Shown: positions 274 to 61,022 of the stretch, one piece after another
Layout of the letters: the number at the start of each line of letters is the position of its first letter
How positions within the stretch are numbered: the first letter of the stretch is position 1
The notes under the pieces: generated by a model
The model's input: the letters and a program-made list of their open reading frames with translations, nothing else
Told to the model about the DNA's origin: nothing
The model's database searches: none
Assembly (NCBI GenBank): GCA_017506865.1
Contig: JAFCMP010000520.1
Location: forward strand, 1-64,000
Length of the DNA: 64,000 bases
Direction of reading: 5' to 3'
Source of the DNA: Tribonema minus
Lineage: Eukaryota; Sar; Xanthophyceae; Tribonematales; Tribonemataceae
Position numbers and translations under genes: made by a program

Positions 274-3200
274 CGTACGGCCCCAAGCAGCTTGCGGAGC
301 TCGACGCCGCCCTCGACGAGCTGGCGCTCATGCTGCAGCACACGGAGAGCTACGACCGCTTCCTGCGGCACCTGGTTGAGGTGAGCTGCGCCTAAATTAC
401 GAATTGATGTATTCAACAACATTCAGGTTTTGAAGCTGCTCTGACGAGCTGGCGCTCGTGCTGCAGCACACCGAGAGCTTCGACCGTTTTCTTGTTTTTC
501 TGAGACGTTCAGCGCTGCTCAACTGGGTGTTGCTCTGGACGATTTGGCGCTCATGCTGCTGCGCGGCACTCCCTAACAGCCATCTGCTTGTGCCTTAACT
601 CCCTCATCCTCAAAACCAGGTCTGCGATGTTCCTTTCTGAATCCTTTTCAAAGCCTGTCTTGCTTAGGCCACCTATGCCAACGTGCAGCATTTCCTTTCA
701 ACTCATAAAAACATTGAATAAGATGCTCTCGAGAGGAAAGCGGCACATGAAGCGCTGCGACCGGTGCCCGATGCACCTGACGGAGAGCGAGGCAACCTGA
801 GTTCAGCTTGATGTACAACGCCCGCTTGAATGATTCGTGCGGGTTGACGCTAACGCTGCAGTGCACAGCAAGCTATGACAAATTTACGAGGCGCCTCCTG
901 AAGGTGTCATTCAATTCACGTTCACCTGCAGGGGACCGCTTGATTGCGCTGCTGCCCGTAAACCGCCTAGGGGACCTGTGACCTTTTCAGGACAGTGCCA
1001 AAGAGAACAATGCCATCATTGGGTTGCTCTGATGCTGCAGGTCATAAATCGCCAAATGCTACAGTAGTTTTATCCCAGGGAGATGAGCGTTTTTTGACGT
1101 CACTTGCATTGCACATGACCTCAAGGGTAATTCGCTTTTTGAAACCACGCGAGTACACCATAAAATACAGAGTGTGAAGGTATTGAGTGTGTATGTATGC
1201 TCCAAGCCTCAGTGGCACGTCACCTTTTGCCTCTGCATTCCTGTTGCGGCGCCAGGGCGTGGAGGCAAGTCACCCTAAAGCGGGGGATGACTTGCATAGA
1301 GAAAAGTCCCCCTCAACGCCTGCCATCATCGACGGACCCGTGCTGCCAGAAAGGACCAAGTGAGTGAGCTGTCGGTTTGTGAGGCAACAGGTATGGTAAA
1401 TTGTGCCAGTGCAAGAGCGGTTGTACGCGCTGCGTTGCTTGCAGCAGCATTTGCACCAGAAACAGTCTCCAGGAAGCTACGCTCGAGGTGTCCACCTCTC
1501 TTGCAGAGCTGCAGGCAGCCCTGCTGCAGCGCAATGGAAACCCGCCTGCCCTGCACAAGCTCGCATCTCTGCCGTGCACGCCGCAAATACCCAGACATGA
1601 TTATGTATTGTATGCACTGCTGGGGACACTCCTGCTCCAAGGCAACCTTGAAAACCCATTCTGCCCTAGACCAGCTTGAACTCACCCCCCCTCCCCCCCC
1701 ACTACGCTTTGTGCACACTGTTGGAGGTGGCCATGCTCCAGCGCACTCTCAAACCACCCTCTGCCCTACACGAAGTTCATTTGACTCACTCCCCCCTCAA
1801 AAATATCTCCCGCTAATGTACGCCCCCCCCCCCCCCTCTCCCCCCGCGCTCCCCCTCGCCCCCCCCCCGCCCACTTCTGCCCAAAATGCTCGTTTTGAGC
1901 GGGCAGGCTGGAGGAGGCCGCCGGCGAGGTGTCAGCGCTCTACGCGGAGCTCGAGGCGGGCCTGTTCCGCTGCAGCCTGCGCAAGGCGCTCGCGATAGAC
2001 GAGGTGCACGGCCACGGCGGCCTCGTGACGTCCAGCTGCGTCGAGGACGCATTCTTCGTGGCGCAGGTGGGTTGGGGGGCAGCGCTCAACCGCTGGCAGT
2101 GTTGCAGTGTTAGGGGCCCAGTGTGCCCTGATGGACCAAGTGTGGCCTGTTATCAGCCTTGGCTCGTTGTGGTTCTTTACAAGTCAGTTGACCTGTCCAG
2201 CTGCGTCGAGGACGCGTTCTTCGTGGCGCAGGTGGGTGGGGGCAGCGCTCAACCGCTGGCGTCGGCAAGTCACCAGATCGGCGCTCTCAAGGATTAAGCG
2301 CGGCTTGCCGTCAACTCGGGCTCAATATGTTTGTTTTGTACTTCGATATGGAGTGTACCTGTCCACCTGCGTCGAGGACGCGTTCTTCGTGGCGCAGGTG
2401 GGTTGGGGGGGCGTGCGCAGCGCTCAACCGCTGGCGTCGGCAACACACCACGCGCAGGCTATGAATTCTCTTGTAAGGGAAAGCATTGTTGAATGATTTA
2501 TACGACACGATGGTCGTAGCCTCTGAGCCTGCTGCATGGAGGACGCGTCGCATGCTTCATGGCGCAGGTACGCGTGGAGGCAGCGCTCAACCGCTGGCAG
2601 TGTTACGAGGCCAAGTCCGTGCCCTCAAGGATGAAGCGCGGCCTGCTGTCAGCCCTAGCTCACTGTGTTGGTTTTGTTTAGCAGAGTTGACATCTCCAGC
2701 TGCGTTGAGGACGCGTTTTTCGTGGCGCAGGTGCATTAAGGGGGGCGCGCAGCGCTCAATCGCTGGCATTGGCAAGGTGTCAAGTGCGTGCTCCCTGTCG
2801 GCCTTGAGTTTGAGGCGTCGCCAGGTACACCTCAATACGTCTTGGGGGGCTTGTTGTGACCTCTGACCTCGCTCTGTGGAGGACGCATTGTTCGTGGCGC
2901 AGGTGGTCGGGGGGCGTGCGCGCTCGGCCGATTGCACCCGCGACACGCCACGCACGAGGCATGTGTTCAGATAGCGTTATTTGCATGTAAATCAGATCAG
3001 ACAATTCTCCGTTCATTTTCAGGTGATTGTGTAAAATCTGGTGGTTTGATTACAGAAGAAAATGAAGAAAGAGCCCAATATTATGAAGGTGCGGCACGTT
3101 CGTTGTAACCTCTGAGCTTTCTACGCAGAGGGCGCGTCGCATGCTTCGTGGCACAGGTGCGTGGAGGGCGCGCGCAGCGCTCAACCGATGGCAACGGCAC

Positions 3201-6200
3201 TGTGCTGTTATATTTTCAAGAGCCGCAAAGTAGAAAAACATGATTTGGTTGTCACTTATACACAAACAAAACAATGTGCACATTCGAAACTTCTTTGCTG
3301 TTTGAATGGAAAACACACAACTAAAAAACACATGTGCATGATTCATGTTGTTTTGTTGACACCGCGTGTGCTGCATTGCTGTGCTTGTCGTGCGCAGCGC
3401 TGCGGGCGAAGGGCACTTGCAACGGGCCACGCAACCGCCGCATCCGCCGTCGTCAACCACCTCGCGAACGCGCTTACAGGCAAGCAGCGATGTCTCAAGA
3501 CGTGCCTCTCAGATGTGTGTTGACATTCATACTTCTACAAAGTACAGTTCTGAGTGGGGTGTTGCCTGAAGAGAAGACAGCATGATTGCTTGTCTTCGAG
3601 GCGCATCTGAAGTGCGCCAGTCATGAAGCTACCGCCGCGTCTGCTGTCGTCAATCACCTCGCGAACGTGCTCACAGGCAAGCAGCCATGTCTCCAGACGT
3701 CCCTCTAATATGTGTGTGAACTCGCATACGAAGTCCGATGCTGGGTGAGGCGTTGCTTGAAGAGAAGACTGCATGATGCATGATTGCTTGCCTTTGAGGC
3801 GTATGCGTCTGAAGTGCGCCAGTTATGAAGTTAGTTACCGCCGCGTCTGCCGTCGTCGACCACTTCGCGAATGCGCTCACAGGCAAGCGCGCCGCAGCAT
3901 GGATATCTCATGGCCTCCTTCTGATCTGATGTGTGTGAACTCGCACACCTTCAAAGTACCCCCCCCCCCCCCCCCCTGTTGGATGAGGCGCTGCCTGAAG
4001 AGAATATGTTTTTTTTGCTTTCTGAGTCATATATTTCTGAAGTGCGCCAGCTGTGACGCTACCGCCGCGTCTGCCGTCGTCAACCACTCCGCGAATGCGC
4101 TCACAGGCAAGCGCGCCGCAGCACCGATGCCTCTTGGCCTCCCTCTGCGACTTGTGTGAACCCGCACACCTCATTAGAACTGTTCTAAAATGTAATACAG
4201 AAATCAATCAGGAATGGTCGCCTGATAAAGCGCGTCTTACCTCTGAAGGGAAGTGCAAAATTTGGTATTGGATGAGACGGTGCCTCAGGCGAAAGCTGTA
4301 TGATTTGCTTGGTGTTGAGGTTTAAATGCTTCTGAAGTGCACCAGTTGTGAAACCGCCGCCGCGTCCGGCATTGGCAATCGCATCGCGAATGCGCTCATT
4401 GCGCAGACGCGAGGAGACCGCAGCACCTCTGTGTCAGAAACGCACTTTGGAGACAGGTTGGACTTGCATGTGAACCTTGAAGATGAGATGTTTTTCCTAT
4501 TAAGAAGACTGCTCCATTCTACAAAGTCTGTGTCCAATATTTTTTGTTGTTGCTTTTAGTCAATGTATTTACATATAAATGTTTCGTGTTTCGAATTTTT
4601 TTTTCAAACTCAAAATTGAAATTCAAGTACACCTTCGTTAAAGAAAGCTATCAGTGCGCTATGTAGACTAAAGATTCCTGCTGTGTCGCGGCTCTCTGCA
4701 GCTCACCAGAAATTGTTTGCCTTATCAAAGGCCTGATTCAATTTTTTTTTAACTTCAATGTTGCAACAAAATACTTGAATTGTTGTTTGATGCTTTTGTT
4801 GGTCGACATGTACCTACAGAAATGCAACTCAATCGCGCGCTCGCTGCGCGCGTTCGGACCAGCACCGGCCGAAGGCAGGCACGCTCGGGGCATCTGGAGC
4901 ACTTGACGACAGTGAATCGTGCTCAAACTCAGAAAAGCCACGGAGGCGGTCCCAGGCACCGTGAAGTAGTGTCATGACACACATGGCAGAATCCAGGGGG
5001 GGGGGGGGGGCACATGGAGGAGGACGTAGGGGAGGATCCCGAGATGCCATTTGGCGGCGGCGGCGTTTGAGTGGTTGTCATTACGACACTTTCAGACTGT
5101 CATACGACATGTAGATTCCGTACTGCTAGATGCCAATCATCTGGGCTTTTTCGCGCCCTGAGCGAGAATGAACAAGAAGTGCAGTCGCCACCGCAGTCGA
5201 TCGCACAGCACCGAAAGTCGCACACCGCGCGCCTGCCACTGACCCTCGCCGTATTTTGGTCGCTTTACATCATTATGGTAAGGATGATCATGTAGATTTC
5301 TTTGTTTGTCAAGAAGTACTCTTCTTTTCGCCGCCGCAGTCAATTGTACAGCACTGAAAGTCGCACACCGCGCACGACGCACCTGCAACCCACCCCGGTC
5401 CTCACGCTAACTGCCTTCACCCCAACTGCACTCATCACGCAAGTTCCCGGATGCCACGGATGCGCACCTGCGTGCACCACGAGGCGCCTGGCATGACCCC
5501 ATAATTGACCCCTAACGATTATACCCCCAGCCCTGGCTCAGGACCCCAAGCAGCACTAACTCACACCAGCCCAAACCCTGCATGGTGTTAACCCTAACTG
5601 CACCAATCAGGCAAGTTCCTGGAGGCCCTGGCAGCGTGCGTGTATTGTTTGTGACTCTTGCCATATTCTAACTCTTACATCAGCAACTCCAATCCTGTTT
5701 GCACCAATCAGGCGAGTCCCTGCAGGCGCTGGCTGCGCACGTGCACGAGCGTCGCTCGGAGCCCTGCCGTGACCATACCCCCTAACCTAAGAACCCTCGC
5801 CCTTACTGCACGAACCAGGCGACTTGCTGCAGGCTCTGGCCGCGCACGTGCGTTTTTCGCGACACTGTCATGCCCCGAGTCTAACTCTAGCAACCCCAAC
5901 CATAATTGCACCAATCAGGCGAGTTCTTGGAGGCCCTGGCCGCGCACGTGCGCGCATCGCTTGACACCCTGCTGTGACCATACCCCCTAGCCCTAAGAAC
6001 CCTTACCTTAACCGTACCAATCAGGCGAGTTCTTGAAGGCCCTGGGCCGCGCACATGCGTGTGTCATTTGGGACACTGCCATGTTCTGCCTCTAACCCTA
6101 ATAATCCTTACCCTAACTGTGCCAATCAGGCGAGTTCCTGGAGGCCCTGGCCATGTTCTGACTCTAACCCTAGCAACTTCAACCTCAACTGTACCAATCA

Positions 6201-9200
6201 GGCGAGTTCCTGGAGGCCCTGGCGGGGCAGGTGCGCGCGTCGCTGGGGACCCTGCCAGGGCTAGGCGGCACTGCGGGGGGCCTAGACGTGGCCCTCAGGC
6301 AGCTGGGGCAGATCGACTTCTCCGACTTGGGCAATCTCGGAGCTCAGTTTCAGGTACGATACGGGAACACATGTGCTTTTTCAAAACGAGGTCTCAGCAA
6401 CAGTGTCCAGCAGCTAGCATGAGAAACATGCTCGGGACAGGACATTGCTGCAAGACCAGTCGGTGGCAGACGCGCTTCACCAAAACTGCCGATTCAGGGG
6501 GTAAGCTTTGAGCACATTGAGGTACCAACGACTGTAGCCCACGGCTCTGGGGTGGACGTCTGCTGACAGCAGCAAATTGCAACTTGTAGACTGTGCACTT
6601 CAGCACTTCCCAACTTCCTCCCTCGCCTCGTCACAACTTCAACTCGTGTTCCGCAGGACAACCTGCAGGGGCTGCAGGGCATTGGCCAGAACATCGCCAG
6701 CGACCTCACGTCGCTCGGCACTAGCGCGCTCACCAACATACCCCTGCGCGGGGGGGGCACGGGGGGCGGCGGCGGCGGCCCCGGCGCAGCAGGTCAGGGG
6801 GCAGGGGGCGCAGCCGCGGCGGCGGCGGGGGGGGCGGGGGCGGGGGGCGTGGCGGGTGCCGTCACTGGGGGCAGGGGAGCGTGCTTGGTGTATCTGAATG
6901 ACTTGGAGGCGTGCGGGCAGTGCGCAGCGCGGCTTGGCGCGGAGCTGGTGCGCGAGGTGCCGGAGACGTTCCAGGTGCGCACTTCAACTGCAAACTTCAA
7001 GTTCTGCTGGGTGTGCGTGACGGCGCAGGCGTTTGTTGTTGATGTGGCGCACGGATTGCGATCAAATTTGCTTGCAGTGTATGCCACTTCGACATTGTGT
7101 TGAGGTACACTTTACCTCAAACGCTCGTATCCGTATAGTCAAAGTATGGACACAGTGCGCGGCGCGGCTCGGCGCGGAGCTGGTGCGCGAGGTGCCGGAG
7201 ACGTTCCAGGTGCGCACTTGAACTTGAAGTTCTGCAGGGCGCGCGTGGGTGCGTCAACCGTTCTCTTGCCGCGGCATCGTCCGCGTCGTGCGCGCCATTC
7301 GCTCGCAATTCATGCCACTTATCGCTTTGAGGTTAGGGTAAGGGTTCTAGCCCTAACCCTCGCTGCAGTACGCTCCACTTCGTGGGCTCCATACACATGC
7401 AATCAAAGCATATTATCAGTGCGCAGCACGGCTTGACATGGAACTGGTGCACGAGGTGGCGGAGACGTCCCAGGTGCACACTCGAGCTTTTTTCGCTGGG
7501 CGCGGTTGACTGTGTCAGCCGTTCTCTTGCTGACGACACCTATGGTGTTGTGCGGTCCGTAATGTGGAGTGCTTCGGATTCACAGCGGTGCCTGCACAGC
7601 CTGCTACCATTTTGCATTTTGCATGACTCCTGCGCAGCCCTCAGTATTGGATCACAAAAACCTGATGGCATTGGGTCCGTTGTCCGCTTTCGCAGCAGTA
7701 GCTTCACGTCAAAAAGTGGAATCACCTTGATGTACTTGAAGTAGTGCCTCAAAGTCATCACTGGGTTGCCAGCACTGCCAAGGCAACTTCTTCTGGTGGC
7801 GACCAGCTGCTGTGGTCTCTGCAAGTTGGAAGGGGCAGAAAACCTCCTCTCGAAGCATGAAGTCTCAACCCTGTATGCTAGAGTCGAATAGTCCAGAACT
7901 CAGCATGCCATGAGACAGCTTTGCCAGACCTCTTACCATCATGTGTTCTGGTGTGCCGCGCGCTGCAATTTCTGCAGGAGGGAAGGGGCACGAGTCCTCC
8001 GCAACACTAACTGTTGATTTGTGGAATCATGAAGGCATTGAGTGATCTGCGATTACATCAGTAGCTCAACATCCAAAGCTGGAAGCATAAAGGCATAGAG
8101 TCCGTTGTCCGCTAATACACCAGTAGCTGCACGTCAAAAAGTAAAAGCATTGAAGACGCACTTTGTGGTATCACCGCGGGGTGGCCAGTACCGCCATGGC
8201 AATGTCTTCTGATGGCGACATACTGCTGTGATCTCTGCAGGAGGGGAGGGGCGCGCAGCTGCTGCTGGCGTGCCTGGGCGAGCTGAGCGGTGCTGCAGAC
8301 GCCTTCGATCAGGTGCGTAGATGCTTACCTCTCTACGTAGCACGTTTGCTCACTGGCAATTAACGACCTGGTGACGTGTAGCACATTCTGCTAGGCTGTT
8401 CGGACCGGGTATGCGCACAGGGGGAAGGACGTATGCGCAGTCGACTATCCACTGTGTGGTCTGGCGCTCCGCTGAGGGAAGCCAGCGCAATATGTGTCAG
8501 GCTCTCGCATCGGTCACGATTAGGGCTAGTGTTAGAGTTGGGGTTAAGTACCTCCTCGCCAGTGCGCCGTGTCACCGCAATGCTGCGCTGCGCACCGCTT
8601 CTATTGGGGGCTTGACATGTGGCGCGGTCTCGCGCCCGCAGGCACGTCACCCCTTGACGTACTTCAAAGAAACGGCAACTTCCACCTGCTGCCGCGTGAC
8701 ACGGAACGCACAAACTCCGTCGTCCCCGGCGCCCTCGCGGCGTCTGTTGCTCGGCAGGCGCCGTCAGTACTACGGCTGAGCACTGTCCCTGCGCACCTGC
8801 AGCGCTTGCGTCGCGACGACCTTTTTCCGCCTGCAACAACACCCCGACAGCATCCATTTCACCTCCTGAGCACTGCTGCCGCTGCCGCTGCGACGCGCTC
8901 ACCTGCTGGCTCGACTGACCCTCTGATGGCACTGTATTCAGATGAACCCGTGCCGACCCACATGCGCATGCAGCGTACAGACAAATTGAGTAGTAAACTT
9001 CGTCAAAGAGTTGCAGGAGCGGGCGCCACAGGGGTGAAGGACAAGTGTGTGCAGCGCACAAGTGTTGATGCCAGCTCTAAGATGCAAGCGTGCAGGATTC
9101 TCAGACTGGCTCCGCGCGGTCAAACACGACAGGGGCATACGGCCACTGAAAAGTGCCAAAGCTCTCGTGCGAACGCGATGCATTGTGAGACACTTCGGGC

Positions 9201-12200
9201 AAAGCCACCAAAGACAGATGGCGCCACGGCTGGTACCATCGCTATTTCAAAAGGGTCTCCCACGCAGGCAGCACTCCTTTGCATCCTTGGTGGTCGAACT
9301 TGGATGCGTCCATCCGCGCCCAATATTCAATAGATCAGCGCCGCCAAGATGATGATGGCGTGAAGTGAGGTGGTGTTTCGCACCGAGAGACGCGGCGGTG
9401 GCATCACGCACGGTATCGTTTCATTCACCCGTCTCATCTTGGACCGGAAGAAGAAGAACTGCGCCTTGGTGCATCCAGAGCATATCATTGGCGCACAGAA
9501 GATTGCTGACACGTTGACCCTGGGCATCAGCCGCTTCCAGTGGGATCACGCCTTTGTGTACCACGCAGCTAGGAATGGGTGAGATACAACTCATTGCGTT
9601 CGCACGAGAGCTTTGGCAGTTTGCCCATTACTAGTAATGGGTGAGGTACAATTCATTGCGTTCGCACAAGAGCTTTGGCAGTTTGCCCATTACTAGTAAT
9701 GGGTGAGATACAATTGATGGCGTTCGCACGAGAGCTTTGGCAGTTTGCCCATTACTAGCTGCGTGGTACACGAAGGCGTGATCCCACTGGAAGCGGCTGA
9801 TGCCCAGGGTCAACTTGTCAGCGATCTTCTGTGCGCCAATGATATGCTCTGGATGCACCAAGGCGCAGTTCTTCTTCTTCCGGTCCAAGATGAGACGGGT
9901 GAATGAAACGATACCGTGCGTGATGCCACCGCCGCGTCTCTCGGTGCGAAACACCACCTCACTTCACGCCATCATCATCTTGGCGGCGCTGATCTATTGA
10001 ATATTGGGCGCGGATGGACGCATCCAAGTTCGACCACCAGGATCCAAAGGACGGCGCTGAGCTTTCCATGCTAACTAATTAATTAGTTTTGCGCTGTGTG
10101 TGCCTAGGCTAGTCCTGCTGATTGGTGCCAAGCAAGCATCGATGAACACGCTGCTGCTTCACGCAAACCATCGCAAACAACTTTGCTAGCACCCCTTACT
10201 GGTGCGCACGCGCTATCAGCGGGGCTCGCCTCACCCTCGCCCGCGTGCGCCAGTTTCGCAGCGGCTGTCGAGCAGGTGCCATCAGCAGTTCGAGTATTTG
10301 ACATTGCACCCATACATATCCGCTCCTAACTTCTCGTGAAAACGAATTAAAGATTGTAGAGCTCCAAGTGACAAGGAGTGGATAGCTGTCAAATTGAATG
10401 CCTGCCACCAATGACCGTCTTGTTTTTGTCGCTGAGCAGGCGCTTTCAGCGGGGCTGGAGGAAGTCGTTGCGCGTCTGCGGCCCGTCATACGCCTCGCCG
10501 TCAGCGAGAAGATGGGGGACAAGTCTCAGGTGATTACCCTCGTTGAAAGTGTGAACATGGCTGCCCGATCCGCTGGTGATGATGATGACCCGCTGGTGAT
10601 GATGATGATCCGCTGGTGAGGATTTCACACACATGTCATAAGGTCGTGCATCTCACAGGTGCTTGTGCATGAATGTAAGAGGGTGCAGCAGCGGTACTCA
10701 CTCGCTTAATTTATGCAAGCTCATGGCGAGCATTGTGTTTCGTGCGAGGTCAGCGTGTTGCGATGAGGCACTTGACGCAAGCTTACAACGCTTGTGGGAA
10801 AGGGCCATGTCTGCAGCCAAGCCAACTGCTCATTCATGGCGCGTTTGAGCGGCCGCGCACAGCGCCAGCGAACGTGCCCACTGCCCCAACCGCAGCGTTC
10901 GCAGCGCTCCCTGCGACACCCCTGCAACACTGATCTCGTCACCACACAACCGCGCGCGCGCGCGCAGGTTTCTTACAAGCTGACGGAGGCGCAGTACGCC
11001 GTGAACGAGGCCTCCGATCCGTGGGCGCTGGAGCTGGCCACGGGCCTGCTGTCACTGCTGCGCCCGTACGAGCCGCCCACGGGACTCAGGTGTGTCACCA
11101 CTTGAAGCTGAGACGCGACAACGTGCCACTTGTAAGTTGCCTTAAAGCATGTGCCTTGGGCGCAGGGCCTACTGATGCTGCTGCGCCAATACAAACCTGC
11201 CATGGGGCTGAAATGCAGCTGGTTACGGGTCTTCTTGACGCTGACGTACGTTGAACAAGCACTCTGAACTAACCTGAAGTGTGTCCTTCATCGCGCGGGG
11301 AGATCGGTACTGCCGACATATCTGCTCCGCATGCCATGCTCGCTATTTTGCAGCAGCGCATGGCTCTGGGCCTCACTGCACCTTGCCAACAGTCAGGGGA
11401 TGACGCAGCTGCGTGCGCAGCGCGATGCGTCATGTTTGCGGCAAGCGTTATCGCGCTTCAACGGTTTCATGATCTGTGAACGGGTTCGCTCCGTGCGGTG
11501 CGTGGAGTTCAAGCACGCAACGCAATCCCTTGCTCTAACAATTGCGTGGTCATCCTCCGCCCCGCTGATGAGTCAGTGATGACATAATCACAGCTAAAGA
11601 GAGCTAGCTTACTACTGGCCATGCGCACACGGTCTCTGACCGGTCGACCCGCCCTTGACTGCTGCAACGCTATCTGCGCGAAGCCCTCAGCGCCGCAGCC
11701 TTTGCGCGCGAGTGCCTCGATTTGAATTTGCTGCGGACACGTTTACAGCAAAAGGCGGTCAGGTCGCGCAGCCAGCAGCGCCCTCTCTGACCGACCGCCG
11801 CGCTGCTATTGCGACGACGCCTTCCGCGCTGCGCCCTCAGCGCCGCGGCGTTTGCGCACCTGCGCACGAGTGCCTCAATTCTTGCTGATGACATGGTCAC
11901 AGCGAACGACAGTCACGTCGCGCAGACAGCAGCCCCCTCTCTGACCACCGACCGCCGCACTGCCCACACGTGCTTGCTGCGCGCGCTGCGCACTCAGCGC
12001 CGCGGCATCACGCGGCTGCTCGCGCTCGCGTGCAGAGAGAGAGATAGAACCGCGCATTCGCCAGCACCACCCCTGACCGATCGCCGCGTCGCCATTGCCC
12101 CGCACACGCTTGCTGCGCGCGCTGCGCCCCCTCAGCGCCGCGGCGTTTGCGCGGCTGCTCGCGCTCGCGTGCGAGTGCGCGGCGCAGCGCGTGGAGGCGG

Positions 12201-13071
12201 CGGCGCGCCGCAAGCGCTTCTCGCAGCTCGGCGGGCTGCAGCTAGACAAGGACGTGCGCGCGCTGGCGGCGGCGGCCGCGGAGCGCGGCGGGCCCGCGCT
12301 GCGCGCGCCGTTTGCGCGCTTGCAGCAGGTGCGCATGTCCTCATAGCTGTTGTAACGCTTGGACTTCGTGATTTGTGTCCTTTTTTTTTTTTCGCAGATC
12401 TCCGGTCCTTGATTGAGGTAATTTGAGATGCGCGACACGTGGGTTGTTGGCCTCATCGGCGAAGCGTTTTGCAGACTATGGTTCTGCGCGCGTGCCTTTT
12501 CCACGAGTTCGCGACACCGTCTTCAACAACGTCGCAAGCGCAGCGAAGTGCTGGCACGGCGTGGCAGCGGTCTGCGTTGGCACCTCAGTGTCCATACAAT
12601 GCTCTACTGTTGTGCATTGAGTATTTCAGAGTAGGGATACAGCAGCAAGTAGTACCTCCCGTGAGCGACGCCGCTTCCGCTGCAAGCATTGCCGTCCTGG
12701 CTGACTGCCGATGCAGATTGCGCTGCTGCTGAGCCTTGACAACGTGGATACCGCAAACTTCTGCTGTCGCAGCGCCCAGCTGTGGCGCTGCTGCAAAAGT
12801 CCAAGCACAACGCCCCCTTGTGCTTGCTTGTGCCCTGTGATTCTTCAATGGCACAGGGCACCTGATGCAACCACGCTTCCGTTGCACGCCCGCCCTCAAT
12901 GCCGCTGCAGATTGCGCTGCTGCTAAGCCTCGACGACGTGGTGGACGCCGCGGATTTCTGGCATGGCGGCGGCGCACTGCGGCAGCACCTCGCCGCGGGC
13001 GAGGTGAAGGAGGTGCTGGCGCTGCGTGAAGACTTCGCACCGGAGTCCGTCGCGGAGCTGGAGTTGTAGTG
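274..13071 (+). CDS. COG4: COG4, conserved oligomeric Golgi complex subunit 4 (5' end outside window)
   Basis: COG4 belongs to the COG tether that captures retrograde vesicles at the Golgi. Exons seen: 274-380, 1907-2066, 3398-3479, 6202-6353, 6656-6974, 8241-8312, 10440-10529, 10968-11089, 12136-12328, 12911-13071 (stop TAG). From 1907 on, every junction agrees in codon phase. Family landmarks appear in order: the LMLQHTESYDRFL helix; LVTSSCVEDAFFVAQ, matching the LTSSMVDDVFYIVK block; ASAVVNHLANAL; NEASDPWALEL, matching YEANDPW; FSQLGGLQLDKDVRAL, matching FNRLGGLQFDKELRSL; and the terminal VKEVLALREDF...ELEL. The middle exon carries a Gly/Ala-rich insert not expected in the family. The 380-1907 junction is out of phase, and about 35 residues known from other COG4 proteins are missing there, so one exon is undetected. 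The N-terminal region lies left of the window. The exon ending at 3479 uses a GC donor. Introns are filled with copies of neighbouring exon ends. Confidence 0.9.
421..905 (+). repeat. Echo ladder of COG4 exon end 274-380
   Basis: Four decaying copies of the last part of the upstream exon (LALMLQHTESYDRFL region), at about 425-520, 525-580, 725-795 and 845-905. The first keeps the words gacgagctggcgct and ctgcagcacac; the last is recognisable mainly from ctgcagtgcacagcaagcta. None is open over its length. Confidence 0.7.
1467..1560 (+). repeat. Upstream echo of COG4 exon 1907-2066
   Basis: In one frame this reads SLQEATLEVSTSLAELQAAL, closely parallel to LEEAAGEVSALYAELEAGL at the start of the exon at 1907. 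It is preceded by intron-like sequence and runs into a stop. It is either a decayed copy of the exon start or a remnant of the missing COG4 exon. The first is likelier, given the pattern elsewhere. Confidence 0.5.
2199..3190 (+). repeat. Echo ladder of COG4 exon end 1907-2066 (six copies)
   Basis: The exon end CVEDAFFVAQ, its donor and the following intron words (ggcagcgctcaaccgctggc) recur at about 2199-2260, 2361-2440, 2530-2600, 2697-2770, 2865-2930 and 3115-3190. Spacing is 150-250 bp. The two nearest copies are almost perfect; farther ones diverge. Copies three and six share the private word cgtcgcatgcttc, which implies duplication of multi-unit blocks. Confidence 0.9.
3620..4402 (+). 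repeat. Echo ladder of the GC-donor COG4 exon 3398-3479 (four copies)
   Basis: Copies of the SAVVNHLANALTG-coding exon end lie at about 3620-3675, 3836-3885, 4057-4110 and 4351-4402. The first three keep the unusual GC splice donor (acaggcaagc). The intron flank gaagtgcgccag precedes each copy. The farthest copy is the most diverged. Confidence 0.88.
4403..4968. other. AT-rich intron stretch of COG4, no gene seen
   Basis: Intron of COG4. About 4555-4760 is AT-rich with T and A runs, in contrast to the GC-rich surroundings. I see no exon, RNA gene or repeat copy here. Confidence 0.6.
4969..5180. mobile_element. Dispersed repeat family A, copy 1
   Basis: A segment of about 210 bp nearly identical to 24111-24319. 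Both copies begin with the perfect palindrome gtgtcatgacac, contain a G run of variable length, then gatgccatttggcggcggcg, and end in ctgggctttttcgcgccctg. The host introns belong to different genes on opposite strands, so dispersal rather than local duplication is indicated. No long ORF and no clear terminal inverted repeat were found. It may be a MITE- or SINE-like sequence. Confidence 0.75.
5434..6201 (+). repeat. Upstream echo ladder of COG4 exon 6202-6353 (seven copies)
   Basis: Seven tandem units of about 100 bp precede the exon. Each has the 3' splice region ccaatcag (or a variant) followed by the exon start gcgagttcctggaggccctg. Starts are near 5434, 5603, 5703, 5808, 5909, 6016 and 6120. 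Units also contain ccctaac words. Only the eighth copy, the real exon at 6202, continues into the full coding block. Confidence 0.9.
7159..7472 (+). repeat. Echo ladder of COG4 exon end at 6974 (two copies)
   Basis: The exon end coding CAARLGAELVREVPETFQ, with its donor gtgcgcac, is repeated at 7159-7211 (almost exact) and 7420-7472 (diverged). A run of TTAGGG/CCCTAA words lies between them at about 7325-7362. Confidence 0.9.
7800..7995 (+). repeat. Upstream echoes of COG4 exon 8241-8312
   Basis: Two diverged copies of the intron end and exon start (tctctgcaggaggggagggg in the real copy) lie at about 7808-7845 and 7965-8000. Confidence 0.65.
8313..9283. other. COG4 intron segment left of the fold-back element, unidentified
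   Basis: This GC-rich stretch is open on both strands for several hundred bases, but I recognise no family. Near 9140-9193 it holds an inverted, diverged copy of the spacer unit of the adjacent fold-back element (gcgttcgcacgagagctttg read on the minus strand). Part of it may therefore belong to the same insertion. Confidence 0.4.
9284..10040. mobile_element. Large inverted-repeat (fold-back) element in a COG4 intron
   Basis: Two arms of about 290 bp, 9284-9573 and 9757-10040, are near-perfect reverse complements (for example caatattcaatagatcagcg at the left and its complement at the right). Both arms encode the same open stretch with motifs RTERRGGGITHGIVSF, LDRKKKNCALVHPEHI and ISRFQWDHAFVYHAA, differing at only two residues. 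I do not recognise the family. The spacer is a three-unit tandem repeat. It could be a fold-back transposon, a head-to-head duplication of a gene fragment, or an assembly artefact of a palindromic read. Confidence 0.8.
9574..9757. repeat. Three-unit tandem repeat forming the fold-back spacer
   Basis: Three units of about 62 bp. Each begins aatgggtgag and ends cccattactag, so the unit ends are themselves short inverted repeats. The core gcgttcgcacgagagctttg is shared by all three, with few changes. Confidence 0.9.
10073..10088. repeat. 16-bp perfect palindrome next to the fold-back element
   Basis: aactaattaattagtt equals its own reverse complement. It lies just outside the right arm of the fold-back element, in otherwise GC-richer DNA. 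Confidence 0.85.
10338..10433. mobile_element. Dispersed repeat family B, copy 1
   Basis: About 95 bp similar to 21374-21461 and 36182-36275. Shared words are tagagctc, gtgacaagg and ccaccaat(g/a)accgt. It ends a few bases before the acceptor of COG4 exon 10440-10529. Confidence 0.75.
11160..11220 (+). repeat. Echo of COG4 exon end at 11089
   Basis: A diverged copy of the LATGLLSLLRPYEPPTGL-coding end: gggcctactgatgctgctgc, then an intact-looking ccatggggctgaaatgcag. The original lies at 11040-11089. Confidence 0.6.
11670..12060 (+). repeat. Upstream echo ladder of COG4 exon 12136-12328 (three copies)
   Basis: The segment ctcagcgccgcggcgtttgc (splice acceptor plus exon start) recurs near 11685, 11837 and 11988 before the real copy at 12131, about 150 bp apart. 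Each repeats the intron part ctctctgaccgaccgccgcg. All copies keep an AG acceptor. Confidence 0.9.
12715..12800 (+). repeat. Upstream echo of the last COG4 exon
   Basis: The stretch gatgcagattgcgctgctgc copies the start of the terminal exon at 12911, including its acceptor. It diverges after about 45 bases. Confidence 0.88.
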
Positions 13072-15494: not shown

Positions 15495-19086
<3,592 letters not shown>

Positions 19087-19695: not shown

Positions 19696-19699
19696 TATC

Positions 19700-20912
19700 T
19701 GAGCAATTAAGCTTACGCTGTCAAGCAAGTGATTGCTGCTGCAGTTGGACCCTCATGTCCTTGCACGCAAATGAGGACGTGCTTGCGATCCGCTTACTCC
19801 ACATGGAAGGCACAAGGCGTCCGCTACCGGCGTCACTGTATACATGTCAACCAGCCATACGTTTTGCATTTGGCGCTGCCTGCATGTTTTGCCAAGTTTG
19901 TGATGGAGTGATGAGTTTTAACGACCGTTCAATATATATGCACCGGTGTTGAATGCAGCCTTCCAGGTCACGGTCACCAAGATTACAAATTTGAGGCATG
20001 CGCCGTGGTTGACAAATTTGATAACGCAGACAGAACACTCGGCATACATCAAAGCAACACACCACGGCCACGGTCGTCCAATCCCTGTGCATTAAAGATG
20101 CCGCACCCGTGTTTCCACCGCGCTGTGGCTTTCAATACGTATTGATATCACTTGTCGTGCTTTCTAGCCAGCACCTGACCGCCATTGTCCAACGTGTGCT
20201 GCCGTTGTGTGGTGTTGCGTCGCCTGTGCCTCCCCCGGTGGGGACGCACTGCACTTGCGAATCTACCTGCAACTCCGTAGCCAGGGTTTTCATGACGAAT
20301 GACATGTACCCCCCTGAAAGGGATTGTCCCCTTCTCCTGCACCTGGGACACCAGCATATCTGCGGTTGTCGCATGCGTTGCTGGCCGAGATCGTCAGGCC
20401 ACTCGCATCGTGCTGTCCAAGACAACCAGGCGTCCACATGCCTTACGCAGTGCTCCTGTGACGTGCACTTGCCCGCTCACACGCGTGATCGGCACGTGCA
20501 GTTCTCGCCTGCCGGCTGATCCTGGTGGCGCAACTCCGAGCCGTGCGATCTTGGCAGCAGCAGCGCAAATTAGTGACGCCTCTTGCCGCGAGCACGCAAC
20601 GCGCGTGGCCATAGTCAGCCCAGCACAGAGACTCGCGCAAGGCCTGCGGCGAATCGACAATCCGTAGAGGCATCAGGCGCGCTGCCGCTCTCGTCGATTG
20701 GGCGCGCAGGCGGTGATGAACTTGAAGATCGCCCTTACTTCAGGCCGCACTGTGCCAGACAACTTGGCAAGCCTCACGTCACACTTGAAGGAGAATCTGC
20801 CTCCCGTCGGGTGCCACTGGTGCGATGGCACTCCGGGCACGTCTTGGATGTGCACAAACATACTCCGGGCGACTTGGTGCGCGAATGTGAAGTACACGTC
20901 TTGGACTTTGCA
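19700..20912. other. Convergent intergenic stretch between EF-hand and WD40 genes
   Basis: 3' flank of two convergent genes. At 20110-20660 both strands have open frames of 90-135 codons, but I see no recognised motif, so I do not call a gene. Confidence 0.4.
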
Positions 20913-28411: not shown

Positions 28412-40299
<11,888 letters not shown>

Positions 40300-40311
40300 G
40301 ACTGTTCTACG

Positions 40312-40435
40312 ACTGGGTCGCGTTGCGGGCTGCGAGGCGGCGGCAGCAGCGATTGGTGCCGGCAGTGGCGGCGGCAGCAGCGCTGCCAGGGCGGAGCTTT
40401 GAGACCTTTCTCTACGACTTCAGTGTTCCATTCTA
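40312..40435 (+). repeat. Echo of the reductase 3' end beyond its stop codon
   Basis: A 104-bp tandem copy of the final coding bases and stop: ggcggagctttgagac appears at 40288 and again at 40392. Confidence 0.88.
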
Positions 40436-44600: not shown

Positions 44601-47600
44601 GCGCCCGTCCTCGGCGCCCGCCGCGACAAACGCGCCGTCGGGGCTGCAATGGTATGGGGGCGCGTGCGAGGGTCAGGGCGCAGCGCATTGTCACAATTGC
44701 GGGTACATGCGAGCACTGGCTCTGGGTCTCCCAACATGCGCAGGCGCCCGTCCTCCGCGCCCGTCGCGACGAACGCGCCGTCGGGGCTGCAGCGGTCATA
44801 GGTGTACGCGGTTTGGGGGGCGTGTGCAGGGGTCAGAGGCGGGCTTAGGGCGCGGCGCATAGTCGCAATTGCGGTTACATGCAAGCTCTGGCTCTGGCTC
44901 TCCCACTTGCGCAGGCGCCCGTCCCCGGCGCCCGCCGCAACGAACGCGCCGTCGGGACTGCGGTGGCGGTCACATGATGGTGTTAGAATTAGGGCCAGAG
45001 TGTGCCATCGGGGATGCGGCGGCGTTTACATGGAAGGCGCGCGAAAGGGGTAAGGGCAGAATGCATGTGCCGCATGCGCACGCGCCCGGCCTCTGCGCCC
45101 GCTGCGACGAACGCTGCGACAACCGCGCCGTCGGGGCTGCGGCAGTTGTCGGGCGCATCGGGTGCGCGCGACGATCAGGGGCTGGGTCGTTAGAGTAGAA
45201 CGCGTAGGCGCAAGTGCAGTTGAATCCAGTTACCCTGAGTTGTCCCGGCGGTGACATGCAGGCTTGCGGCAGGGTCAGGGGTAGGGTAGAATGCGTGTCG
45301 CACATTGGTGTAGGGCTCACCCCAATCCTAACCCCAACGCTAACTTTGACCCTAGGGCTGAGGGCGTGTAGAACACGTGTCGTGCAGGCACCCGCGACGA
45401 ACGCGCCGTCGGGGTTAGGGTTAGGATTAGGGTTAGGACGGCAACGTGGCGGCTACATCATTATGGGGCGCCATGTTGGGGGGTGAAGCTCAGGGCTAGA
45501 ACGCACTGTACGGGGCTTTGGCGTTGACGCGATCGTAACGGGGCGAGGGTGAGCCGCCGCCGCCCCGGTGACATGAAGTGCCAAGTACGGTTAGGTTAGG
45601 GTTAGTCTAGGTGTGCTAACTAGGGTCAGGCTTGGGTTAGGTGAGAGGTGCGGCGCGCCCTCGGAGGCTGCAGTGGTAAACACACACGATGTGGCTGGAG
45701 TGGGGGTTGCGCCGTCGGGTCTGCGGCGGTGGGTGTACATCTCGGGCGCTTGCGAGGGTTAGAGCTAGGGCTTGAGAGGGTCAGAAATGGGGCACAATAA
45801 TAGCATCCGACTTGGGTCTGAGAGTTGGACAGAAGCGGGGTTGCGGCGGCGCTTGCGGTTTCAGCGCATGCCAGCTGGAATGCTAACCCCGGGGTCAACA
45901 TTGGTGCTATGTAGGGTATGCCGCTCACATGAAGCAAAAAAAAGTACGATTTCAAAAGAAAAAAGAGTTAGGGTTGAGGCGCGCCTACGGACATTCGCCG
46001 GCATCAAGTGTTGAAGGTAGTCAGGATTTGTGTGCCGATCAGGGTGACATGATGTGGTGTGTGCATACATGGGGTAGGCATGTATGGCAGGCATACTCTG
46101 TTCATGAATGCAATTGTACTTTTCATGAATTCACCGCAACCGCCGTATTATATGGCGTCCAGAAAATGCAACGGCGTTGCTACGCCAAGAATTACATCAG
46201 AGCGCGTGCGTATGTCTGGGGTATGGAGCACGACAACCGTAAATGGGGGGGGTGTCACGATGCGAGCGTACCTGAATACGGCCCTGATGAAGGATCGCAA
46301 ACAAAAACCGCTCGACATGGGAAGGCGACTCTAGCGCTCTGCAAGGAGTCGACTACCATATGGTAGAAGTACCTGTCATGCATGGAGTAGGCACGTATCG
46401 CGGACATGCAAGATACCCTTCGAAACGCGCACAGACCTGAAAATGGCCCTGATGAAGGAGCGCGTCGCGTCGCAACTGCCGTATTCTATGGCGTCCAGAA
46501 AAGGCGACGGCGCTGCTATGCCACGTATCGCCTCCGAGCGCGTGCACGTATTTGGGTATGAATCATGATGACCACAATCGGCCGTTCTGTCACAATGCAA
46601 GCGTACCTGAACACTGCCCTGATGAAGGAGCGCGTCCCGTCGCAACTATGACATCTGATAATTAATCAGTTGCGATGGCGCTGCTATGCCGTGAATTACA
46701 TTAGAGCGCGTGCACGTGTTTGGGAATCATGGCAACCACAAATGGGCGTTTTGTCACAATGTGAGCGTACCCGAGCACGGCCCTGATGAAGGAACTCGCA
46801 CAAGAAAACGCTCCACATGGACTGCGACTCTGGTACGCCATCAAGCACATGTGACTGCTGCATACCTGTCATGAAATGGCGTAGGCACATACGCCATGCA
46901 TGAAAGACGCACGTTCAAACGTGAGCGTACCTGAACACGGCCCTAATGAAGGAGCGCGTCGCGTCGCAACCGCTGTAGCCGGGGTTCACCAGCTGGTACG
47001 TCGCCAGGTCCAGCAGCCGCGTGACGTTGCCCTGGTGAGATATATGCGGTTACGAGAGATGTGACCGACAGAGTTGTCAGCACTCCGAATTAAATATATG
47101 TACGTATTTGCCCTGGTAAGATAGGCAGATGCGGGTGTGGAATATGTCACCGTCAGAGTCGTCACTTCGGCTTCAACAGGCACTCAGAATCACGGTATTG
47201 ATTTGTCGGAACTGCACCTGCACCAGCTGCTGCGCGAGGCGACAGGGCAGCGCGAGCGCGAGCGCGAGCGCGGCGATACATCTGCTTCAAGAACTGGATT
47301 CCACTTCAACTCCTATACTTGAACCATGCATTCATGAGTGCACAAGCACTCGAGGGCCCCGGTTTGAAGTCTAAACGTGCCGACTCACCTGCGCCTGCAC
47401 CAGCAGCTGCGCAAGGCGGCGGTGCGGTGCAAGTGCGAGCGCGGTGATGGGCGCGCCGCACAGGTCACTTCAACCCTCACTTGAACTGTGAATCCATATC
47501 ATCAGCATCAGCCCCCGAGGGCCCCATTTGGCACTCTAAGCGTGCCGTCTCACCTGCGCCTGCACCAGCAGCTGCGCTAGCCGGCGGTGCGGTGCAAGTG

Positions 47601-49356: not shown

Positions 49357-49388
<32 letters not shown>

Positions 49389-52300
49389 CTCACCGCGCAG
49401 GTCCCACAGCCGCAGCAGGCCGTCGTACGCGCCCGTCACCGCCAGCGCGCACTCCGACATGAACGGCGCCAGCGACGAGAAGCTGCCGCGGCTGCGGCTG
49501 CGCCCGCGCACGTGCCCGCGCGCCGCGCCGCCGCCGCCGCCCGCTGCCGCCAGCGTTGCCGCGGCGGCGGCGGCAGCGGCGGCGGCGTGCGCGTCGCCGC
49601 CGCCGCCGCCCGCCACCACCGGCATCGCCGGCTGAAACACGGCGCAGTAGACGTACGTCGGCGGCGAGTGCTGCAGCGCGTGCAGCAGCCGCGGCGCCAG
49701 CGCCCCGGCGGCGGCAGCGGCGCCGCTGCTGCCGCGCCGCTCCCCGTCGCCCAGCGCCGCCGCGAGCAGCAGCGCGTCGAGGGAGGCGCTGCCGCCGAGG
49801 CCTGCGGCGCCGCCGCCGCCGCCGCCGCCGCCGCTGCGCATGCGCCAGACGGCGGCGGTGCCGTCCGCGGACGCCGACAGCAGCAGCGCCGCGTCGCTGC
49901 TCCACTGCAGGTTGTAGGCGGCGCCGCGGTGACCGCGGAGCTCCGCGAGCAGGGCGCCTGCGGGGCAACGTGCGCGCGCGCAGTTTTGAAGTTCAGGTTG
50001 TGAAGTTCAAGTACGGATTTCCTGCAAGTGACGGCCATCGCCTTCTCGCCCCACCCGGGCCAAGTGGAGCCCATGCTCACCTGGGGGAGGGCCATGCCCC
50101 TTAAGCGGGGGCTCGTGCACAGCAGCGCTCTGAAATCACGCCCGGACCGGCATCCGACGTAAGCGATGTCACGGCCGCACCTAAATGCTGTGCCGCCAGC
50201 GACACAGCAGCGCGCCAAGCGCGGGTGCCAGCGCTGCTTCGCTGTAATCCTGGTGTGCTGAGCACGCTGCTGCTGCATCTCGTCACGCGTCTCCGGATCG
50301 AAGCCCCTCAGCAGCCGCGTATCGTGCACTGTACGCGGGCGCGGATGGCAACCAAACGCATTACTGCCGCCCTACCACACTTGAAATAGGGTCAAGGTAG
50401 GGTCAGGACTAGGGCTAAAAGTTACGGTTAGGGTTCGGGTCAGGGATGTCAACATCGATGATTGAGCACTGCTGAGATCTCTCGTCCGTCTCTGGATCGA
50501 CGGCCACGTATCGCACACAGTACGTGGCGCGGAGAGTGAATGGACACGCCATGTGCGTGGCCCACCGCCGTGCTGCACTTGGATCCCAAGCGAGCTGAGG
50601 TAACTTCAATTCCAACTTCAACTTCTCACCCGTCTCCGGATCGAAGACCCTCAGCGGCCCCACACCTTGCATCGTACGTGGCGTGGGCAGCAATCAGACA
50701 CGCCATGTGTGTGCCACCCCCGCCGTGCAGCACTTGGTTCCTGAAGACAGAGCGATGCTGAGAGAACTTGGAACAACAACTTCAACTTCTCACCTGTCTC
50801 CGGATCGAAGACCCTCAGCGGCCACCGCCCCGGCGCCACCTCGCCGCACGCCACCGCCAGCAGCGCGCCGTCGGGCGAGAACGCCAGCGCCGTCGCGCCC
50901 TGCGGCCCGCCGTCCAGCCGCCTGGAGAATTCAAATGTAAGTTCAATGTTGACGTTAGACAAGTGTTGAAGAAAAATGAATGTTCTATGCTCTGATGAAG
51001 TGCGTATCAGCTCAAAGCGACCGCCAGCAGCGCGCCGTCGGGCGAGAACGCCAGCGCCGTCGCACCCTGTGGTCCGCCGTCCCGCCGCCTTGGAGTTTCA
51101 AGTGCAAGTTCAATGTTAAAATGCGAAGAAGTGTTGAAGTACAACGCTGTCTAAGTCACCGCCAGCAGCGCGCCGTCGGGCGAGAACGCCAGCGCTGTCG
51201 CACCCTGCGGCCCGTTTAATTGCCGAGGGAACGCAATCAAGTGGAATGGTCACTTCGAATCAGTGTTGAGGTACAACCAAAGAACGTGGTATATATAGCA
51301 AGCGCTGCGCGTTAGCTCAGAGCCACCGCCAGCAGCGCGCCGTTGGGCGAGAACGCCAGCGCCGTCGCGCCCTCGGCCCGCCGTCCAGCCGCCTGCAAAA
51401 GACCAAGTGCAAGTTCAATGTTGACTTCAACCAAATGTTGGAGTACAGCACTGCCCGTCAGCTCAACGCTACCGCCAGCAGCGCGCCATTGGGCGAAAAC
51501 GCCAGCGCCAGTGCTGTCCCCCCCCCGCCAGACAAATACCAGCTGGAGCTCCAGCTCAAGAGAGTGTGAGGGGTGAAGCAGGCGCAGCATGGGCCACTCT
51601 GCCGCGCGTCATGCGCAGCGAAGTCCATATTCAAGCTCAACCATCTTGTTGCTGAAGCAGCGTCACTGGTACCTGGATGTTCAACTACCATACGTGATCA
51701 GTGCGCAGCACCATCACCAAGCAGGCTCGTTGCGTGCACACTGCGATCGCGCCAGTCGACTCTCAGCATGTGCAACCCGAACAGGCGGCATCAAGGCCGC
51801 TCAGGAATGATTCAACGGACGATGCGGTAAGAAACGCACTGCAGCACCCGCGTCGGAGGGAGGCAGCGCTCCGCAGGCGCGCGTAACCGCCGCACGCGCC
51901 GCGCCGCCGACCGCGCATCCCCCGCCTGCGCAGCCAGCGCCGCTGCCGCCGCCGCCGCTGCCGCAGGCTCCACCGCGCCGCCGCCGCTGTCGTCCGCGCG
52001 CTCAGCAGCAGCAGCGGCGGCGGCGGCGGCAGCTGCTGCTGCGTCACCCTCGTCGTGCCACGGCTCCAGCTTCGGGAGCGGCGGCGGCGGCGCCGTAATG
52101 GTGATGTCGACAGTCAGGACGCCGGGGTAGAGTGCGCGCGAGCAGGCCAGGTACTGCACGAACATGTCCTGCGCGTCGCCGCCGCCGCCGCTGTCAGGCC
52201 GAGCGCTGCTGCCGTGATGAGCGCTGCTGCTGCTGCCGCCGCCAATGAGGCCGCGCCGCGCCGCCTGCCAGCGCTGCAGCGGCGACAGCGGCGCGTGCGC

Positions 52301-53097: not shown

Positions 53098-53135
<38 letters not shown>

Positions 53136-59400: not shown

Positions 59401-61022
59401 GCTCCGCCCGCCAGCTGAGCTGTGCTGCCTCTCCACCGCGCGCCCTCCGTTCGTCCACGCACGCAGGCATGACGGCGCGCTCCGTCGTGACGCCCAGCGG
59501 CGCCATGCGCGCGGCGGAGGTCGTGGAGCTGCGCATCGTCCTGCAGAACATTGGCGTGGGCGCGCGCGGCACCGCCACGGCGTACCTCCCGCGCCAGCCG
59601 CTGCGCGTGGCGACGCGCGGCAGCAGCGACGGCAGCAGCGGCGGCGGCAGCGGCGGCGGCGGCGCGTCCTCCTTCTTCGTGGAGGCGATCGGGGACCCCA
59701 GGCTGTCCAGCCAGCTGGTGAGGAAGGGTGGGCTGGGGGGGAGGGCGTGCGGCAGCGGGCGGTGGGCGCGGTGGCTGGACCAGCCGCTGAGGCTGTACGA
59801 GTCCGCCACTTTCAGGTGAGGACTTGAAGTTTGGTCCGCGCCGTGATTGTGGTGCAGCGCGCGCTGTTGCGGTGCGCTTGAGTGCGATACAATGCCGGCA
59901 GGTGTGAGAGGGGGGTATATGCGATCATCAAGCAGTTGGCGCGGCAGCTGGACCAGTTGCTGGGGTTGGTTCAGTCCCAGGTGAAGACTTGAAGTACGGG
60001 ACGCCACTTGCACGCCAGCGTGTGATAAGCAACGTACCTTGCGGGGGAGATCGGCTGCGGGGCGGTCGTTGGGCGATGAAGTGCGGGGGCAGCAGGTGGA
60101 CCAGCTGCTGCGGCTGCGTAAGGTCGCCAAGCGCGGGTGGGCCACAAACTGAATTGGGCCACACCGCACAATAGTCCCCTACCAGATTGCTGCTTGGCGC
60201 ACCCAGTCGGCGACGACTGGGGCGGCGCATGCAGCTTGTGCTCAGCCGTCAGCTGCTTTCGGCCAGGTTGTCCAGACTGGTGCGGTGGTCAGACGACGAG
60301 TCGGTGTCATGAATCGCTTGTTGTGCACAGTTGAAGTAAGGATTTCAGCCCTTTTCTGGCGCACGAGGCGGGCAGTACTGCTCAATGCTTAGGCATACAG
60401 GGACTTGTGCACGGCAGACGACCACTGCAGTCCTGCTTGCCGCACAGGGACTGGTGCACGGCAAGCGGCCGCTGCAGTCCCGCTTGCCGCTTCAGCGCCT
60501 ACGCTCTTGATCAGCTGCGACCGAGTGCTCCATCAGCGCCGGACGCCGTGTGCTTAGTCACCTGGATGTGGTGGGCGCCTGCACGCTGCGCAAACCGCAT
60601 CCCCGCGTGCTCACACGCCGTTCTCCGCGGCACCGCCTCTCACCGTGCTGCCGCCACCGCATGGAGGCGCAGCAGTGGCGCAGCGGCAGTGCGTCACGCC
60701 GCAGAGCGCGAGCTCAACTCTCGTCGTCTCCGCTCTTCAACTCCTCCGCCTGCGCAGCGCATTCCTCGAGGTCCCGGGCTGCGCCACGGAAGCAGAGTTC
60801 CTGGACCAGGCCGTTAGCCTCGACCTCGGCGTGGAGCTCGGCGGCTGCGACAGGAACGACGGCGGCGCGGCGGCGGCGGCGCGCAGGGAGGGCATCGTCC
60901 TGCACGTGGGCCTGCGCGGCACTGACGCCGCGGCCACCGCCGCCGCTGCGTCCGCCACTGCCGCTGCCGCCGGCGCGCTGGAGGCGGCGGCGCCGCCGGC
61001 GCGGCGGAAGGCGCGCGTCTAG
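56456..61022 (+). CDS. bHLH domain protein joined to an F-box protein (probable fusion)
   Basis: Exons: 56456-57155, 57483-57850, 58282-58498, 59467-59815, and about 60700-61022 (stop TAG). Phases agree at the first three junctions; the last acceptor is unresolved. Residues about 88-152 form a bHLH: basic stretch YERKKGRAKMLRQEISDRF, helix 1 DDLQALL, an extended loop, helix 2 KRSSILDAAIAVIRSL. The canonical His-Glu-Arg DNA-contact pattern is only partly kept. Exon 2 carries an F-box at about residues 298-345: LPIHAFLDAASLEAARRACR, then DWRARCAWDCTWARQCAARW, expected to bind Skp1 in an SCF ligase. The rest (VELRIVLQNIGVGARG, FLDQAVSLDLGVELGGCDRN) is unrecognised. Two adjacent genes remain possible: only a phase-1 donor at 57155 and a phase-compatible acceptor at 57482 link them. 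An in-frame ATG at 56171 could extend the N-terminus. Confidence 0.65.
57955..58115 (+). repeat. Echo of F-box exon end at 57850
   Basis: gcaggcgcgctgcttcgcgc followed by gagcgctgccac copies the exon end and donor region (gcaggcgcgcttctcgcggg). The flank gcgcaggcgggactgcgc matches the preceding coding bases. Confidence 0.8.
59080..59440 (+). repeat. Upstream echoes of exon 59467-59815
   Basis: At 59105-59160 (caggcaatgacggcgccctc...gccatgcgc) is a diverged copy of the acceptor and exon start at 59464. A weaker one starts near 59275. Confidence 0.7.
59900..60500 (+). repeat. Downstream echoes of exon end at 59815, plus a short tandem repeat
   Basis: Copies of the segment ending in the donor (ggctggaccagccgctgagg ... 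caggtgaggacttgaag) lie at about 59925-59995 and 60060-60130. At 60395-60495 a separate two-unit repeat of about 45 bp is built on gggactggtgcacggcaagc. Confidence 0.75.

Follow-up and report, generated by a model that had tools for sequence, protein, structure and literature searches.

Intron gain by a single tandem genomic duplication of an exonic AGGT segment is well known, as outlined in PMC3443670 (citing Gao and Lynch 2009 and Hellsten 2011), and a potato RdRp gene is put forward in PMC4974935 as a case of intron gain by tandem duplication. The subject here is a related pattern in the xanthophyte Tribonema minus, found in the first 64,000 nucleotides of contig C517 (JAFCMP010000520.1; assembly GCA_017506865.1, 158.2 Mb in 554 contigs), a stretch referred to below as the window. 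Introns in this window hold serial copies of the edge of a neighboring exon together with its splice site; such a copy is called an echo, and the echoes of one exon border form a ladder. Single duplications that create introns are known, and the serial exon-edge ladders found within introns differ from them in the order of the duplicated fragments. A literature search by title and the start of the abstract, with most subscription journals lying outside it, returned no description of exon-edge ladders in introns.

The sample comprised 39 introns from six loci, part of which were picked for visible echoes. Eight of the introns belong to COG4 and ten to a gene for a fumarate-reductase-like flavoprotein, the two window genes with exact exon models, and 21 to CCT chaperonin genes on other contigs (loci L039, L040, L042 and L043), which were found through a family search and used as a test outside the window. 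Contigs C5, C51 and C135 were picked since that search had already given overlapping matches, and a further CCT locus that carries ladders, L041, does not enter any count, its introns being only partly delimited. Introns were chosen with both ends defined in homology-based models; they start with GT (37 introns) or GC (2) and end with AG. For each border, a 36-nt probe from the exon edge was compared with its own intron and with 300 length-matched stretches taken from the introns of other genes, and the opposite exon edges were probed against the same intron as wrong-side controls, because a single junction-spanning duplication does not put them there.

At p<0.01, right-side echoes were detected at 30 of 78 borders (five of the 30 with weak scores of 13-16), compared with 1 of 66 wrong-side controls. 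The 3' end of the upstream exon is echoed in 16/39 introns and the 5' start of the downstream exon in 14/39, with wrong-side controls, counted by edge, at 0/34 and 1/32. At a score of at least 20 the figures are 25/78 borders on the right side and 0/66 on the wrong side, and at p<0.05 wrong-side matches number 5/66, near expectation. One donor-side match, in intron 2 of L042 (counting from 0), lies 710 bp away and lacks a GT. Self-BLAST of the window found 127 direct and 6 inverted repeat pairs less than 1.5 kb apart, and no repeat pairs were found in one base-shuffled 10 kb stretch; Tandem Repeats Finder independently detects several arrays. In both programs the local repeats stand head to tail, in the same orientation and close together, the arrangement of generic local tandem duplication. 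Chance or low complexity as the source of the echoes is ruled out by the length-matched introns of other genes, the wrong-side probes and the shuffled stretch. The original prediction that introns contain copies of exon borders is thus confirmed by self-BLAST, exon models and the probe test, and its polarity also holds, in that copies downstream of an exon carry the exon 3' end plus donor and copies upstream carry the acceptor plus exon 5' start.

Echoes occur in 26 of the 39 introns. Within the window they are found in 15/18 introns (6/8 in COG4 and 9/10 in the fumarate-reductase-like gene); outside it, in 8/10 introns of two CCT loci picked because the family search hinted at echoes, and in 3/11 introns of two CCT loci picked without such a hint. 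That last figure, small as it is, carries the least bias as an estimate for the remaining genome; not every gene has ladders. Introns with an echo have a median length of 920 bp, compared to 447 bp for those without (Mann-Whitney p=0.0014), and one of the three modelled window introns that lack an echo measures 1,576 bp. Local repeats make up 41% of the sequence in the modelled window introns and 49% in the region 43-53 kb, against 10% in a second WD40 gene (22.0-28.3 kb) and 5% in 53-64 kb. Loci taken regardless of echoes fall below the modelled window introns (kinase loci L001-L008, 0-9%; L009-L016, 0-39%). In a minus-strand WD40-type gene at 43.0-51.5 kb, six repeat families were read by eye; five could be placed as ladders with this polarity relative to their strand, and the sixth received no assignment. 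Kinesin genes (C511 at 561,699/562,024 and C246 at 700,950/701,357; among 132 matches) and a tRNA synthetase gene (C445 at 424,791 and 424,414; among 28 matches) show comparable overlaps in model position, again noted by eye. The pattern therefore recurs on other contigs, in the CCT loci and through the overlaps in the kinesin and tRNA synthetase genes, as a check of the rest of the genome was expected to show. The predicted extent, more than 20 introns in six genes of the window, stands in part: it is matched in 15 of the 18 introns of the two modelled genes and by the ladders of the third, WD40-type gene, and the remaining three modelled introns do not share it.

The 29 ladders comprise 82 echoes, with a spacing of 70-344 bp (the 710 bp case apart), a median of 149 bp and up to nine echoes per border; the units had first been put at about 100-280 bp with 2-10 copies. 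Spacing shows no frame bias (26/32/24 modulo 3). Similarity to the true border drops with distance in 10 of the 11 ladders that have at least three echoes. Among the 68 echoes with an exon score of at least 18, the donor dinucleotide (GT or GC) is retained in 37/43 and the acceptor AG in 25/25. The exon part of the nearest echo spans 22-112 nt (25 borders) with no fixed edge; none of the 20 nearest echoes at borders of known exon length is a whole-exon copy, which rules out whole-exon duplication. True site and echo differ at donors by a mismatch of 0.12 in the exon part and 0.26 over intron positions 7-12, and at acceptors by 0.13 and 0.24; a ratio of about 2 is what would be expected near the junction if constraint acts on the true exon alone and all else drifts. 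Neither gene conversion nor selection on the echoes' exon portion has to be invoked there, though either may act farther out.

Of 33,691 intron bases, 10,887 (32%) lie in border ladders and 1,642 (5%) in interior-only repeats, those that hold no exon sequence; the border class is inflated, because any repeat with an earlier echo inside it was assigned there. By intron, 24 have border pairs, 15 have some interior-only pair, two have interior-only pairs alone and 13 have neither. Across the 2,402 bp of exon covered in the two window genes, no repeat pair was wholly exonic. The claim that ladders explain the large introns thus holds for about one third of the sampled intron sequence, and the remainder is not made of ladders. 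Local direct pairs are about 65-96% identical in the window and reach 97% in L043. Repeated tandem duplication was predicted and fits these observations; the further claim that it continues today is suggested by the wide range of copy identity.

COG4 was modelled in part, from 1907 on the plus strand; its partial spliced product matches COG4_C (4e-29) and COG4_m (6e-12) (PF08318/PF20662). Its ladders are as follows.

1907..2066, plus strand: COG4-like exon, 3' end echoed downstream, junction homology-based.
2067..3200, plus strand: donor ladder, six echoes of that exon 3' end, GT in all; junction equivalents 2231, 2397, 2567, 2730, 2902 and 3156.
3480..4401, plus strand: donor ladder after exon 3398-3479, which has a GC donor at 3480; GC retained in 3/4 echoes.
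5590..6201, plus strand: acceptor ladder before exon 6202-6353, six clear echoes, with a weak seventh at 5438.
7153..7530, plus strand: two donor echoes of exon 6657-6974 (self-BLAST, probe).
11633..12135, plus strand: acceptor ladder before exon 12136-12328, three echoes, one of them weak.
12701..12747, plus strand: one acceptor echo before the exon that starts at 12911.

Two COG4 introns hold repeats of other kinds. A dispersed repeat of about 210 bp (4969-5183) opens with a G run and takes up 55 of 56 listed genome matches to the first 12 kb, a lower bound, at 80-98% identity on both strands; the listed matches include no second copy of these 12 kb and, besides the dispersed repeat, hold one 77-base match. 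A foldback at 9343-10030, in intron 8313-10439, has arms of more than 200 bp (by eye) around a 62 bp unit present three times.

The fumarate-reductase-like flavoprotein is predicted to be soluble. Its spliced product matches fumarate reductase 2 (PDB 5glg_A, E=5e-87) and, when joined from 28413, has a single stop, which is terminal. In its introns, as in CCT introns, long C-runs rather than T-runs form the pyrimidine tract before several acceptors. Exons and repeat features are listed below.

28412..28690 (ATG read at 28412), 30267-30335, 31230-31402, 32487-32567 and 33340-33560, plus strand: exons 1 to 5 of 11.
35199-35302, 35993-36105, 37008-37151, 37839-38034, 39220-39331 and 40091-40299, plus strand: exons 6 to 11, the gene ending at 40299.
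30690..31229, plus strand: acceptor ladder before exon 31230-31402, two echoes by probe.
31403..32420, plus strand: donor ladder, nine echoes of the 3' end of exon 31230-31402, GT retained in eight.
33102..33235, plus strand: acceptor echo before exon 33340-33560.
33561..34141, plus strand: donor ladder after exon 33340-33560, six echoes by probe, GT retained in 6/6.
35509..35663, plus strand: two donor-side echoes of exon 35199-35302; the GC of this intron's donor, at 35303, retained in 0/2.
37607..37728, plus strand: acceptor echo, 92% identical, before exon 37839-38034.
38035..39048, plus strand: donor ladder after exon 37839-38034, five echoes, GTGCGT retained in 5/5.
39689..40090, plus strand: acceptor ladder before the last exon, clear echoes at 39734 and 39910, with a weak one at 39390.
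40208..40411, plus strand: tandem duplication over the coding end and stop codon, with no splice site; 40208-40308 versus 40314-40411, 82% identical.

The same gene contains a ladder of about 81 bp units directly after a donor (30337-30687, self-BLAST), made of the intron start with no exon sequence. In the WD40-type gene at 43.0-51.5 kb, the ladders are these.

43020..43391, minus strand: donor ladder, three echoes of the exon ending near 43493 (Tandem Repeats Finder, by eye).
43904..44174, minus strand: acceptor ladder, two echoes, upstream of the exon ending near 43493 (self-BLAST, by eye).
44710..45123, minus strand: acceptor ladder, three echoes, the farthest weak, of the exon at about 44568-44661 (by eye).
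47331..47475, minus strand: donor echo of an exon in 47496-47640 (by eye).
51003..51518, minus strand: acceptor ladder, four echoes, of the exon at about 50900 (self-BLAST, by eye).

Models built on the outermost sites, the choice that was modelled in full, give conserved proteins. For CCT gamma, the alignment of the spliced product, echoes omitted, with solved CCT gamma chains (E 7.8e-149) is free of inserts at all four junctions. Three of these four junctions border ladder-bearing introns, with the true donor standing first in its ladder and the true acceptor last. The protein is preserved through one intact copy, as had been predicted. Use of an echo donor would lead to a stop in 39/43 cases and use of an echo acceptor in 16/25. 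Because 25/43 echo donors equal or exceed the score of the true donor that they copy, position would seem to decide for many donors, as in exon definition.

Frequent and roughly random local tandem duplication, followed by a filter of selection, probably explains the ladders. Under this proposal, local tandem duplications of about 70-350 bp would arise often and roughly at random in the genome, and those internal to an exon would damage the protein and be lost. A duplication over one splice junction would instead leave an intact copy on the exon side and push the second edge, with its splice site, into the intron. If splicing follows exon definition, each exon's acceptor would pair with the nearest downstream donor and the outermost intact sites would be used, so that a junction-crossing duplication would be nearly neutral; repeated events would then produce longer introns and ladders that decay with distance. 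The process was simulated with uniform placement, purging of exon-internal duplications and no deletions, in 12 settings of one run each and with an echo cut-off score of 15. With a starting intron of 250 bp and mutation at 0.10, the simulation reproduced the observed counts for 39 introns, 16 echoes of donors and 14 of acceptors. In the model, border targeting is not required if ancestral introns were short; otherwise it may have played a part.

Several results weigh against this explanation. No simulation setting fits everything: simulated border cover is 0.38-0.97, above the observed 0.32 in every setting; the observed border-to-interior ratio of 6.6 falls between the 150 and 250 bp settings; and starting introns of 100-150 bp give too many echoes and those of 350 bp too much interior repeat. 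All 25 acceptor echoes retain AG where exon-side identity would lead one to expect about 19, a hint of constraint, although the copies share ancestry. Farther from the junction, intron-side mismatch rises to 0.27-0.43, which exceeds the factor of two; the duplicated homology may not reach that far. Duplicated donors often favor the intron-proximal site, which would predict mis-splicing here. Finally, only 10/25 echo acceptors match or outscore the true site that they copy, and 7/25 attain the lower quartile seen among true acceptors; the echoes may just be the weaker sites, and position need not be the sole cue for acceptors.

Under one rival to random duplication, exon-intron borders are the targets of the process, perhaps because breaks or stalled polymerases arise there in connection with co-transcriptional splicing or with R-loops at splice sites. 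The 32% of intron bases in border ladders against 5% in interior-only repeats, the mere two of 39 introns with interior-only repeats and no border pair, and the much larger interior repeat predicted from 350 bp starting introns all argue for it. However, uniform placement in starting introns of 100-250 bp yields a bias in the same direction, the border class is inflated by the way in which repeats with an earlier echo are counted, and the conserved exon side would keep old border copies detectable for longer. Exon parts of such varied length, with no fixed edge, also sit poorly with targeting, as does the duplication across the stop codon of the fumarate-reductase-like gene, which therefore needed no splice site. 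Targeting is on this evidence doubtful, and the original wording, duplication across exon-intron borders, does not imply it, given the 15/39 introns with exon-free repeat pairs, the stop-codon duplication and a uniform simulation that nearly fits. A broader version, in which ongoing duplication prefers borders through coupling to transcription or splicing, a ratchet lengthens introns, and the spliceosome passes over as many as nine similar decoy donors guided by nothing but position, is rather improbable.

Selection might instead maintain the splice sites of echoes in the role of decoys, enhancers or regulated alternative sites, a reading that draws on the retention of AG in 25/25 and GT or GC in 37/43 and on the strength of echo donors. 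Donor retention is, however, close to a neutral expectation of about 33/43, 15/25 echo acceptors are weaker than their own true site, the use of echoes mostly runs into stops, and spacing is without frame bias, which together make selection very unlikely. Birth of the introns by tandem duplication of exonic AGGT segments is a documented route (PMC3443670; PMC4974935), and the scheme in PMC3443670 would predict an intron start that resembles the downstream exon and an intron end that resembles the upstream exon. The echoes keep exon edge and intron flank in the original order: those of upstream exons run on into a donor dinucleotide (37/43) and intron-start sequence, not an acceptor, and those at acceptors keep the intron end before the exon start, so that this origin is highly improbable. 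Assembly error and real tandem paralogous exons that are all spliced in are both scarcely credible given the wide range of copy identity. Against them also stand the recurrence of ladders on other contigs, the absence of whole-exon copies among nearest echoes (0/20) and the CCT gamma product, which aligns without inserts when echoes are omitted.

Other features of the window include a near-perfect GCA repeat at 18201-18400 (about 67 units, 98% matches) and a duplication at 20847-21371, 94% identical, that lies outside the modelled genes (self-BLAST). Elsewhere in the assembly, contigs C90 (750001-850000) and C179 (138001-238000), covering loci L019-L038, were considered as a haplotype pair and rejected as such, since they carry long intronless frames. 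Their mutual identity is mostly 89-96% and one frame was read as DNA polymerase-like; the pair resembles two copies of an endogenous large DNA virus. Two short contigs, L017 and L018, carry similar ribosomal RNA, with a differing 18S part and locus ends that read N. An 18S fragment agrees exactly with one heterokont probe, which hints weakly at a stramenopile.

Why introns become long is an open question that is often answered with transposons. In the introns sampled here, a large share of the sequence can be traced to the neighboring exon, which would make intron growth readable event by event. The ladders also offer natural experiments on splice-site choice, because in many of them several donors of equal score share one exon context, and the winner can be told from the protein that is conserved.

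Among described systems, intron gain from AGGT segments, as set out in PMC3443670 and PMC4974935, shares with the ladders a small tandem duplication that splicing hides from the protein. It differs in that one event there makes a new intron out of exon, whereas here existing introns grow by many duplications, each carrying an existing junction. Introners, as presented in PMC9860276, resemble the ladders as a lineage-specific mass change of intron content, but they are dispersed mobile copies that create introns, and the echoes stay close to their source, each peculiar to its own intron. Rather than one family spread across the introns of unrelated genes, 30/78 edges score higher in their own intron than in nearly all 300 stretches from other genes. 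In the intronic tandem repeats and satellite-rich giant introns of PMC6508621, tandem repeats likewise lengthen introns; their units appear not to be copied from the neighboring exon edge with its splice site, as the units of the Tribonema ladders are.

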